A DNA stretch of 45,887 nt, from assembly GCA_021775005.1 (NCBI GenBank), contig JAJFIK010000047.1, positions 1 to 45,887 on the forward strand. Direction: 5' to 3'. Shown here piece after piece: positions 34,746 through 38,541 of this stretch. Position 1 is the first letter of the stretch, and the number at the start of each line of letters is the position of its first letter. The stretch is from Rhodospirillales bacterium (GTDB lineage Bacteria; Pseudomonadota; Alphaproteobacteria; JAJFIK01). A program made the position numbers and the translations under genes. Below the pieces are notes generated by a model that was given only the letters and a program-made list of their open reading frames with translations, was not told where the DNA came from and did no database searches.

Positions 34746-35668
34746 CGCATCACGCCAAGGCGTCGTCGCACTTGCGCTTCCGTATGAATGGCATTGCCGG
34801 TGTAAAGCGCCAGCGCGGTCCAGATCAGTGCAAAGGTAATAATGTGGCGAAGGGTGATGGCCTCGCCGTAACTCACCGCAATAATGAAATGAATCGATGG
34901 GGCGATATATTGCGCGATACCGAGGGTCGTCAGGCGTATGCGCCGCGCCGCGTAATTATACATCATCAGCGGCACAGAGGTGAACGGCCCGCAAAACAGA
35001 AAGAGCAGCGCGATCAACCAGCCGCTGTTTAGAAAGTGGCTTTCACCTTGAATCATCAACCAGATCAAATAGGCAAGGGCAAAAGGCGCCACCAAAAGCG
35101 TCTCAACCAACAGGCCCTCAACAGATTCAATGTTGACGGTTTTGCGGATGTAGCCATAAAAGGCAAAACTCACGGCAAGCGTCACCGGAATCCACGGCAA
35201 GGTGGTTAAATCGAGCGAAAGATTGATCACCCCAAGGGCGGCCAATCCAACGGCCGCCATTTGAATGCGATTAAGCCGTTCACCAAGCAGCGCCGCCCCG
35301 ATGACCACGTTCACCAACGGATTCATGAAGTATCCAAGGCTGGCATCAAGCACGCGGCCATGGGTGGTGGCCCAAATGAACAAGAGCCAATTGATCACGA
35401 TAAGTCCCGCGCTCAACATGAGCATGCGTAAGACACGCGGGTCCTTTACCTTTTCCCAAACATGGGCAAAGCCCTCGCCCCTTTGCACAACGATGGCCAG
35501 CATGACGCCTGCCCACAGAACCCGATGCACGAGGATTTCAGCCGCGCCATAGGCGCCGAGCAATTTCCAATAGAGCGGACTTACGCCCCAGGCGACGAAC
35601 CCGCCCACTGCGGCTCCCGTTCCCAGATGAACACGGGCGCGGACTTCGGCTTCGCTCCGCTCTGTCAT
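34742..35668 (-). CDS. rarD: RarD-like EamA-family permease
   Basis: Inner-membrane protein of the drug/metabolite transporter superfamily; RarD substrates are not established. The 308-residue protein shows ten predicted helices and the RarD signatures [30 protein letters not shown] and [15 protein letters not shown]. The length is typical. Its start codon overlaps the cysS stop (ATGA), so it is expressed with cysS. Confidence 0.9.
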
Positions 35669-37002
35669 TTTGTAATGGTCCAGGTGGTGCCTTCCGCCCC
35701 GTCCATAATCTCAACACCCATGGCCTTTAATTCATCGCGAATACGATCAGACGCAGCAAAGTCTTTAGCTGCACGGGCTTTGGTACGTTCCGCAAGAAGT
35801 GCCTCGACAACCATAGGATCGACGGACGACCGATTGAGCTTGGCCGCTTCCCACGCCTCCGCCGTGCCCTCAAGAAATCCAAGCAATTGCGCACCAGTTT
35901 TAAGCCCCGCGCCATCGCCTGCACTTGCCAGTTTGTGCAACTCTGCAATGGCACCGGGCGCGTTGAGATCATCTGAGATCGCTTTCAGCACACCTTCCGG
36001 CGCTTCCTTCGTCGCTTCAACGCCATCGGTCAAAGCGTACCACCTGTCGAGGGTGCCTTGAGCTTCCTTGCCTGAACGCTCTGTCCAATCGATCGGTTGG
36101 CGATAGTGGGACTGCAACATCTGCAGGCGCAACACCTCCCCCGGCCATTCATCAAGCAATTCATGAATGGTGCGGAAGTTGCCGAGGGATTTCGACATCT
36201 TCTCGCCCTCGACCTGCAGAAATCCATTGTGCATCCAAAAATTGGCCAAGGGTTCGCCGTGGGCGCAGACGCTCTGCGCCACTTCGTTCTCATGGTGGGG
36301 AAAGACAAGATCAATGCCGCCGCCATGAATGTCGATGGTGGTGCCCATATGAGCTTCAATCATGGCGGAGCATTCAATGTGCCAGCCCGGGCGCCCGCGG
36401 CCATAAGCTGAGTCCCAGCCGGGCTCAATGTCGGACGACGGCTTCCACAACACAAAGTCCATGGGATTTTTCTTATAGGGCGCAACTTCCACCCGCGCGC
36501 CGGCGATCATGTCATCAATGGAGCGTCCGGATAACTTGCCATAATCCGCCATGGATGTGACGTCGAACAGCACATGGCCTTCGGCGGCATAGGCGTGACC
36601 CTTTTCCACAAGCGTGTCGATAAGCGTGAGCATTTCTGCAACGTGATCCGTCGCCCGTGGCACCAGCGTTGGCACCAGGGCGCCAAGGGCGGCCACGTCA
36701 TCTTCGTATACTTTTGCAGTTTCTTCGGTGAGGTCGCGAATGGTGCGACCTTCTTTGGCCGCCCGCGCGATGATCTTGTCTTCAATGTCGGTGATGTTAC
36801 GCGCGTAGGTAACGTGGTCCGCGCCATAGAAATGGCGCAGCAAGCGGAACAAAACATCGAATACAATCACAGGGCGCGCATTGCCGATGTGGGCATAGTC
36901 ATAGACCGTTGGCCCACAAACATACATGCGCACATTCTTCGCATCGATGGGGGTGAAGATCTCTTTTGAGCGCGTTTTGGTGTTGTAAAGTTTCAAGGTC
37001 AT
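35665..37002 (-). CDS. cysS: Cysteinyl-tRNA synthetase
   Basis: Class I aminoacyl-tRNA synthetase charging tRNA-Cys. The 445-residue protein has the HIGH motif as [13 protein letters not shown] as [10 protein letters not shown], zinc ligands in [17 protein letters not shown] and FPHHENE, and the family's C-terminal helices. ATG at 37002 is used with the weak site TGAGA upstream; ATG at 37014 is the alternative. A 23-codon ORF with two adjacent Cys codons lies in the leader about 110 bases upstream, and hairpins fill the space between (see separate entries), suggesting control by charged tRNA-Cys. rarD is coupled downstream. Confidence 0.96.
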
Positions 37003-37040
37003 GGGACGTCTCATTGGTAATGCGAATCAATAGGGATGAA

Positions 37041-37057
37041 CGTCGCGTGCTGCGACG
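37041..37057 (-). promoter_or_regulatory. Hairpin in the cysS leader
   Basis: CGTCGC-AGCAC-GCGACG on the - strand forms a perfect 6-bp stem between the leader ORF and cysS. Its 3' arm (GACGT, 37044-37040) can instead pair with ACGTC (37009-37005), directly before the cysS ATG, so the two pairings exclude each other. No T-tract follows. TGCCTG/CAGGCA upstream offers another pairing. Whether any of these acts as a switch is inference. Confidence 0.35.
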
Positions 37058-37111
37058 ATGCCTGACGGTGAACCCAATTGTCGATGAGGAAATACGCAGG
37101 CAAGCTATGCG

Positions 37112-37183
37112 CTAGGCACAACACCAGCGCGGGCCGCCCCTGCGGGCGGCGGCGGTTTCGAAATTCACGGTGTTGCGGGCCAT
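37112..37183 (-). CDS. Putative cysteine leader peptide upstream of cysS
   Basis: A 23-codon ORF not long enough for normal gene calling. It starts MARNTVNFE and ends PRWCCA, with tandem TGT TGT codons at 37123-37118 just before the TAG stop. It has an excellent ribosome site (AAGGGGAG, five bases before the ATG). It starts 20 bases after the gltX stop and ends 109 bases before cysS, with no other gene between. A 7-bp GC stem (GCCGCCC-GCAG-GGGCGGC, 37150-37133) lies within it, just before the TGG TGT TGT codons. Tandem Cys codons ahead of the Cys-tRNA synthetase gene are what a ribosome-stalling leader would look like. A chance ORF cannot be excluded, and I do not know a described family for it. 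Confidence 0.55.
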   Translation of the reverse strand: MARNTVNFETAAARRGGPRWCCA

Positions 37184-37203
37184 TGCGGCTCCCCTTTACC
37201 GAA

Positions 37204-38541
37204 TTAGGCGGTTTCGCCTTTGAGACGGGCCCGCACGCGCGCCGCGCCGATGAGCGGCAGAAGATGCGCCATATCAGGGCCTCGATCAAGCCCAGTTATG
37301 GCGGTTCGCAAGGGGTGGAAGAGCGCCTTGCCCTTGCGCCCGGTTTTCTCCTTCAGAGCTGCCGTCCAAATCCCCCAGGTTTCCACCGTCAGATCCCCTG
37401 ATGGCAGAAGCGCTGCGGCGTCGGCGATATAGTCCGCCTCTTCGATGCGAGGTGTCACCGGTTCGGTCACAAGAGCCCAAAGCTCCGCCACATCGGCAAA
37501 TTTTTTCAGGTTCGGTCGCACCGTGTTCCAGAATTCCTCGCCTGCTTCAATGCCCAGCGCTACCAAGCGGTCCACCACATCTGCGAACGCGATCTCGTGG
37601 AGAAGTTTGGCGTTGAGAGATTCAAGCTCGCGCATGTCAAACCGTGCTGGTGCTCGACTGATCTTTTCAAAAGCAAATTCATCAGCAAGAGCCAGCAGCG
37701 AGGTGCGCGGCTCTACCTGATCAGAGGTGCCGATTTTGGCCAGCTGGCTCAAAAGCGCCAACGCCTCAAAGCCTTCCTCGCGCAAGCCTTGCACCGTAAG
37801 TGACCCAAGCCGCTTGGACAGCTTCCCGCCATCGGCATCCGTCAACAGCGGATGGTGGGCAAATTCTGGCACCTTGCCACCCAAGGCTTCAAAGATTTCG
37901 ATTTGCGCGCCCGAATTTGTCACGTGATCCTCGCCGCGCACAATGTGGCTGATACCGAACTCGATATCGTCAACAATGCTTGGCAGAGTATAAAGATAGC
38001 TGCCGTCTTCGCGGATCAAAACCGGATCTGAAATCGATGCCGTCTCAATGGTTTGCTCGCCGCGAATAAGGTCGATCCATTTCACCGCATTACCGGATAG
38101 CTTGAAACGCCAATGGGCTTGACGCCCTTCAGCCATCAATTGTTTCTTCTCATCATCGCTGAGCTTCAGCGCGCTACGATCATAGACCGGCGGCAGGCCG
38201 CGGGTGCGCTGCACACGGCGTTTGCGGTCAAGCTCGTCGGAGGTCTCATAGCAAGGATACAAAAGCCCCGCTGCTTTCAGCTTGTCCCTCGCCGCATCGT
38301 ATTTCGCAAATCGTGCGGATTGATGCTCAATGCGGTCATGCTTGAGCCCGAGCCACGCCAGGTCATCAATGATGCCTTGGGCAAACTCAGCGGTGGAGCG
38401 CTCTAAATCGGTATCGTCCAGACGCAATACGAATTGCCCACCTGCCCTCTTCGCCATCAAAAAATTGATCAGCGCGGTGCGGATGTTGCCCACATGAATG
38501 CGGCCCGTGGGGCTCGGTGCAAAGCGAACGATGGTGGTCAT
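37204..38541 (-). CDS. gltX: Glutamyl-tRNA synthetase
   Basis: Class I synthetase for tRNA-Glu. The 445-residue protein has the HIGH motif as RFAPSPTGRIHVGNIRTALIN, the RLDDTDLERS segment, and KMSKS as GGKLSKRLGSL. At 445 residues it is shorter than E. coli GltX (about 470), as is common for the GltX2 type present alongside a second copy in many alphaproteobacteria; whether it charges tRNA-Glu or tRNA-Gln cannot be told here. cysS and its leader lie downstream in the same direction. Confidence 0.95.
   Translation of the reverse strand: MTTIVRFAPSPTGRIHVGNIRTALINFLMAKRAGGQFVLRLDDTDLERSTAEFAQGIIDDLAWLGLKHDRIEHQSARFAKYDAARDKLKAAGLLYPCYETSDELDRKRRVQRTRGLPPVYDRSALKLSDDEKKQLMAEGRQAHWRFKLSGNAVKWIDLIRGEQTIETASISDPVLIREDGSYLYTLPSIVDDIEFGISHIVRGEDHVTNSGAQIEIFEALGGKVPEFAHHPLLTDADGGKLSKRLGSLTVQGLREEGFEALALLSQLAKIGTSDQVEPRTSLLALADEFAFEKISRAPARFDMRELESLNAKLLHEIAFADVVDRLVALGIEAGEEFWNTVRPNLKKFADVAELWALVTEPVTPRIEEADYIADAAALLPSGDLTVETWGIWTAALKEKTGRKGKALFHPLRTAITGLDRGPDMAHLLPLIGAARVRARLKGETA

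Follow-up and report, generated by a model that had tools for sequence, protein, structure and literature searches.

Control of cysS, the gene for cysteinyl-tRNA synthetase, through a cysteine leader has so far been documented only as a Rhodobacterales motif, uORFC-8-2, described in a single survey paper (PMC8632094). Its 145 examples all lie 5′ of cysS and come from Rhodobacterales only; the motif comprises an AUG-initiated uORF whose tandem Cys codons, usually codons 14 and 15, are placed in a stem, together with a terminator stem followed by a U-run (PMC8632094). The mechanism proposed there is ribosome-mediated attenuation, in which a shortage of Cys-tRNA-Cys makes the ribosome stall, upon which RNA polymerase reads through (PMC8632094). 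In a literature search, the name uORFC-8-2 was not found beyond that paper, and the leaders preceding cysS at five Rhodobacterales loci had no match in Rfam 15.

Leader peptides of related kinds have been described elsewhere. In mycobacteria, polycysteine leaderless short ORFs attenuate downstream genes in response to cysteine by way of their Cys codons (PMC8764745, as cited in PMC13236596 and PMC9094748), and translation attenuation has been reported for these Cys uORFs (PMC13236596, citing PMC8764745). In Sinorhizobium meliloti, the trpE attenuator works with the leader peptide peTrpL (PMC10117765, PMC7298713).

In this study, we describe a short ORF located directly upstream of cysS in an alphaproteobacterial window of 45,887 nucleotides, the window being the whole stretch of DNA analysed. 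As judged from its sequence and from those of its relatives, this ORF is very probably a cysteine sensor that raises the production of cysteinyl-tRNA synthetase. Tandem Cys codons in a short ORF directly 5′ of cysS, within the Alphaproteobacteria, are what the locus shares with uORFC-8-2. The mycobacterial ORFs, as portrayed in the papers citing them, resemble it in having Cys codons in a short ORF and attenuation of the downstream genes, whereas they occur in Actinobacteria, are leaderless, and precede cysteine biosynthesis operons rather than cysS. Similarly, peTrpL is an alphaproteobacterial leader peptide attenuating an amino-acid gene, although it concerns tryptophan, is leaderless, and heads its own transcript. 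peTrpL carries codons for the amino acid that it senses. A preliminary description of the locus had stated that no example was known for this gene in this group; this has to be corrected for the class, where uORFC-8-2 is known (PMC8632094), while for the order of the window no described example was found.

Results

The gap between gltX and cysS, two synthetase genes, harbors a 23-codon ORF that begins 20 nt after the end of gltX and finishes 109 nt before the start of cysS, and whose product ends in Trp-Cys-Cys-Ala (Table 1). The ORF with its good ribosome site, the tandem TGT codons following a GC-rich stem (at a distance of 9 nt from the stem end), and the 6-bp hairpin downstream of the ORF, all pointed out in the preliminary description, were found again in our analysis. 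The cysS start at 37002 is kept in the relatives, from which an alternative in-frame ATG at 37014 is absent. No family match was obtained for the leader peptide in a family search. Between 36900 and 37400, we found neither a sigma-70 promoter-like site, the consensus of which covers alphaproteobacterial promoters poorly, nor an intrinsic terminator or terminator-like site. Rfam yielded no match in the window at the gathering score, nor in the leader at E up to 5, and no tRNA or T-box-like element was found in the window. Since the leader ORF lies so close behind gltX, with no promoter-like site in between, it is probably contained within a gltX-cysS transcript, where it would adjust cysS alone. 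Other TGYTGYGCNTGA endings occur in the window's genome at 16 places, 8 of which were viewed by ORF length and peptide only.

Table 1. Features of the gltX-cysS region of the window
Feature	Position	Strand	Basis
gltX, glutamate--tRNA ligase, upstream of cysS	37204..38541	(-)	TIGR00464 above cutoff, and ORF
Shine-Dalgarno-like GGGGAG, 5 nt 5′ of the leader ATG	37189..37194	(-)	sequence; counterparts in relatives
Leader ORF, MARNTVNFETAAARRGGPRWCCA-stop, 23 codons	37112..37183	(-)	sequence; similar ORFs in G001 (21 codons) and G002 (23 codons)
5′ arm, CGCAACACC, of predicted helix pairing the ORF start with the Cys codons	37169..37177	(-)	folding; shuffle p 0.23
GC-rich hairpin GCCGCCC-GCAG-GGGCGGC inside the ORF, 7 bp, loop GCAG, 5′ of the Cys codons	37133..37150	(-)	sequence/folding
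3′ arm, GGTGTTGTG, of the same predicted helix, covering the Cys codons	37117..37125	(-)	folding
Tandem Cys codons TGT TGT (codons 21 and 22)	37118..37123	(-)	sequence
6-bp hairpin CGTCGC-AGCAC-GCGACG before cysS	37041..37057	(-)	folding; positional conservation
cysS, cysteine--tRNA ligase, presumed regulated gene	35665..37002	(-)	TIGR00435 above cutoff

The ORF is real and is conserved across the three genomes of the order that were compared, all of one genus (the window and two relatives, G001 and G002, whose cysS is 72% and 75% identical to that of the window by tblastn). At the same place in the gltX-cysS gap, G001 has a 21-codon ORF, MATVTQKQWKHVSVDVLCCCA, ending in DVLCCCA, with Cys at codons 18-20, and G002 a 23-codon ORF, MARTGLRVATVSWGSTICPCRCA, ending in TICPCRCA, with Cys at codons 18, 20, and 22; purine-rich ribosome sites, GGAGAG and GGAGG respectively, stand at the equivalent place. 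All three genomes have in common an ORF of 21-23 codons located 20-30 nt past gltX, a Shine-Dalgarno sequence, a Met-Ala start, and two or three Cys among the last six codons, followed by a final Ala; outside the Met-Ala start, Cys-rich end, and terminal Ala, the peptides have little sequence in common. Comparison of the gap among relatives, as the preliminary description had proposed, upholds the ORF, its ribosome site, and its Cys codons, the latter not being adjacent to one another in G002. In the three genomes, the clustered codons for the cognate amino acid are kept while the remainder of the peptide drifts. This is a trait of leader-peptide attenuators, and a leader peptide would be expected to retain its sensing codons in just this way.

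An ORF arisen by chance in a GC-rich spacer could draw on the background of about 7% (13.65 of 190) that loose Cys-cluster ORFs reach in the class survey presented below. In its strict form, however, defined as a Shine-Dalgarno-led ATG opening an ORF of 8-35 codons, of which two or more of the final six encode Cys, such an ORF appeared at a frequency of 0.0006 among 5000 dinucleotide shuffles of the window's gap and of 0.001 and 0.0016 among as many shuffles of each relative's gap (0.06-0.16% per gap), yet it is present in all three of these widely differing genomes, and we give chance practically no credence. A small working protein, whose Cys pair would serve the peptide itself (for example in metal binding) rather than regulation, would be in keeping with the ribosome site of the ORF and with its constant location between the two genes; the scant likeness of the three peptides outside their ends, the absence of a family match, and the fact that the downstream gene charges cysteine nevertheless make it very improbable.

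As regards RNA structure, small hairpins of differing sequence are located in both relatives at the place of the window's GC-rich stem, and around this small hairpin a pairing of the ORF start with the Cys codons is predicted in the three genomes, again with differing sequences. Compared with shuffles by duplex energy, this helix gives p 0.23 in the window, and 0.0035 and 0.034 in the relatives (combined Fisher p ~0.002, for one of two region pairs tried); it would be the counterpart of the stem that holds the Cys codons in uORFC-8-2. Further downstream, in each of the three genomes, the best local hairpin of the ORF-cysS interval ends 29-37 nt ahead of the cysS start codon, with p 0.13 in the window and 0.0025 and 0.0075 in the relatives (Fisher 0.0002). 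The window has the weakest copies of both elements among the three genomes, its foldings being no better than shuffles (z -1.0 and -0.6), and the folding energy of its whole leader is not clearly below that of shuffles either (z -1.1).

The preliminary description had also suggested that the 3′ arm of the hairpin before cysS could pair instead with the bases before the cysS start. Such a pairing does exist in the window, where it rests on the palindromic GACGTC and reaches -7.8 kcal/mol vs -8.6 kcal/mol for the hairpin, but it is not kept in the relatives (-10.0 vs -13.8 kcal/mol in G001 and -3.2 vs -13.7 kcal/mol in G002), and we have rejected the arm swap as a shared switch. Modelled folds of the window with ribosome-masked positions displayed no clear switch, the openness of the cysS start region being 0.56, 0.57, and 0.55 across the positions.

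These results bear on the possibility of purely translational control, in which a stalled ribosome refolds the leader and opens the ribosome site of cysS, transcription being unaffected. The absence of a U-run terminator from the window, the position of the hairpin before cysS in the three genomes, and the reports of translation attenuation at Cys uORFs of mycobacteria (PMC13236596, citing PMC8764745) would agree with it. On the other hand, the modelled ribosome positions barely alter the openness of the cysS start, the hairpin leaves this start uncovered, and the arm swap is not conserved; on balance, control of translation alone appears to us rather unlikely.

For comparison with uORFC-8-2, a covariance model was built from 20 aligned Rhodobacterales leaders; it is our own reconstruction, not the published model, and with 6 pairs only it is mostly a description of sequence. 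It finds seven of the eight Rhodobacterales loci outside its building set (E 1e-5 to 1e-15), matches two Hyphomicrobiales leaders weakly (E 0.1 and 0.5), and, with E allowed up to 5, returns no match to the leader of the window or to those of G001 and G002. In the Rhodobacterales leaders, uORF codons 2-5 can pair with the stretch directly before the U-rich run (p ≤ 0.1 against shuffles in 12 of the 20), whereas in the window a pairing of this style, between the ORF start and the stretch past the stop, is absent (p 0.86). As the window has neither this pairing nor a U-run, we do not file it as uORFC-8-2. The two also differ in the location of the Cys codons, which occupy the very end of the window's ORF instead of, usually, codons 14 and 15, and in the U-run terminator that the window does not have. 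Furthermore, the window's ORF follows gltX and is provided with a ribosome site, whereas the collected Rhodobacterales leaders start seemingly leaderless.

In the Rhodobacterales uORFs (L229-L256, L128, L147, and L086), a TA-rich hexamer precedes the ATG by ~12 nt, and no ribosome site is seen, which suggests that they are translated from leaderless transcripts. A GCGGGC past the stop and a GCCCGC before cysS are nearly invariant in this order, and could pair around the U-rich stretch.

Is the window, despite these differences, a plain member of uORFC-8-2, acting through transcription attenuation with an intrinsic terminator? The same gene, the tandem Cys codons, and the predicted stem containing them would argue for it, as would the leader of G001, the only one of the three with a T5 run, in which the helix ends at TTTTT just past the ORF. 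Against this stand the failure of the covariance model to recognize any of the three loci, the absence of a U-tract in the leaders of the window and G002, and the missing helix between the ORF start and the post-stop stretch, so that plain membership is improbable.

To place the locus within the class, 190 distinct cysS upstream regions, nearly all from Alphaproteobacteria, were surveyed for short ORFs that end 35-190 nt before an anchor (cysS codon 5) and carry a Cys cluster in their last 16 residues. Such ORFs were present in 66 of the 190 leaders vs 13.7 in shuffles (sd 4.1; highest of 20 shuffles, 21) and 4 on the opposite strand, and tandem CC ORFs in 35 vs 5.7 (sd 3.4) and 2 on the opposite strand, counts that include related genomes and hence are not independent. 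About a fifth of the 66 must be expected to have arisen by chance. A cysS tree with 110 rows shows the Cys-cluster label to be clustered (16 changes vs a shuffled mean of 25.9). Taken with the conservation across the order, this class-wide excess strongly supports the proposal, already made in the preliminary description, of a cysteine-sensing leader peptide for cysS.

Three families recur among these leaders: one in Rhodobacterales, MKxTCIIICCIITC-like; one in Hyphomicrobiales, MNGLLAICAICREITS-like (Bradyrhizobium, Pseudolabrys, and relatives); and a third, MTIAATTACICCTIIIS / MKTAATIWCICCTIIIS-like, in a single additional family (L146, L148, and L152). The Hyphomicrobiales leaders lie outside the published description of uORFC-8-2. 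In Bradyrhizobium and its relatives, the ORF-start pairing seen in Rhodobacterales is located before CTTTTCTC, with individual p values of 0.06-0.5, which are weak singly. We infer that, in Rhodobacterales and in Bradyrhizobium and its relatives, stalling at the early Cys codons would place the ribosome over the 5′ arm of the terminator. Filters based on Shine-Dalgarno sequences miss most of the Rhodobacterales and Hyphomicrobiales leaders, because a ribosome site is seemingly absent there.

Several observations were made along with the survey. The Hyphomicrobiales MNGLLAICAICREITS-like loci are L056 (about 2871-2981), L055, L072, L074, L048, L059, L035, L028, L030, and L201; their leaders, apparently devoid of a ribosome site, show a helix and then CTTTTCTC. 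Strong hairpins occur at the stop codon and before cysS in L146, L148, and L152. In L183, the region upstream of cysS contains a candidate leader with an extreme content of Cys, MTRCQNQICQICIGCICCQSIICG (given from the first Met). Close to cysS, two Rhodobacterales loci (L037:779-878 (-) and L086:571-668 (-)) match Rfam PYLIS_3, the pyrrolysine insertion sequence of mttB, above the gathering score; these matches probably reflect mttB-like coding sequence rather than the use of pyrrolysine.

Discussion

All together, we consider it likely, and with good confidence, that the window contains a cysteine leader peptide inside a gltX-cysS transcript, which adjusts cysS only, by means of a fold that a stalled ribosome keeps open. 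When Cys-tRNA-Cys is plentiful, ribosomes would read past the Cys codons, terminate, and dissociate, upon which the leader would fold, with the ORF start on the Cys codons and the hairpin before cysS formed, and cysS expression would be low. Under a shortage of Cys-tRNA-Cys, a ribosome halted at these codons would keep the fold open, favoring transcription into cysS (more likely) or increasing cysS translation, and thereby restoring charging. Within this scheme, the elements that we infer are the translation of the ORF, its co-transcription with gltX, the stalling, the sign of the effect, and the step at which cysS is affected.

The location of the sensing codons sets this leader apart in one respect. 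In the three genomes, a single Ala codon separates the last Cys codon from the stop, and a stalled and a terminating ribosome would cover nearly the same RNA; the difference must therefore lie in how long the ribosome stays, and a switch of the classical two-position type could hardly be accommodated here. Concerning the output, transcription appears about twice as likely as translation, because of the precedent of uORFC-8-2, which the window's leader probably resembles in its way of working. The stretch past the ORF in the window is richer in C than in G (0.32 vs 0.21), and, as a guess, it could serve Rho.

A broader proposal, which we advance tentatively and with some doubt, is that of an operon-internal cysteine attenuator, which would separate the control of cysS from that of gltX, be read by the dwell time of the ribosome at the ORF end, and have an output without a U-run terminator (through Rho or translation). 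It would belong among related leaders of several architectures that may be old and widespread for cysS in Alphaproteobacteria beyond Rhodobacterales.

What is new here is a probable cysteine leader before cysS in a separate, uncultured order, with a build different from that on record, together with Hyphomicrobiales leaders (Bradyrhizobium) whose build resembles that of Rhodobacterales, and similar leaders in other groups. If this reading is true, a leader peptide sits between the two synthetase genes of one pair, and cysteine-dependent control of cysS would be a class-wide regulatory habit, testable in ordinary laboratory strains.
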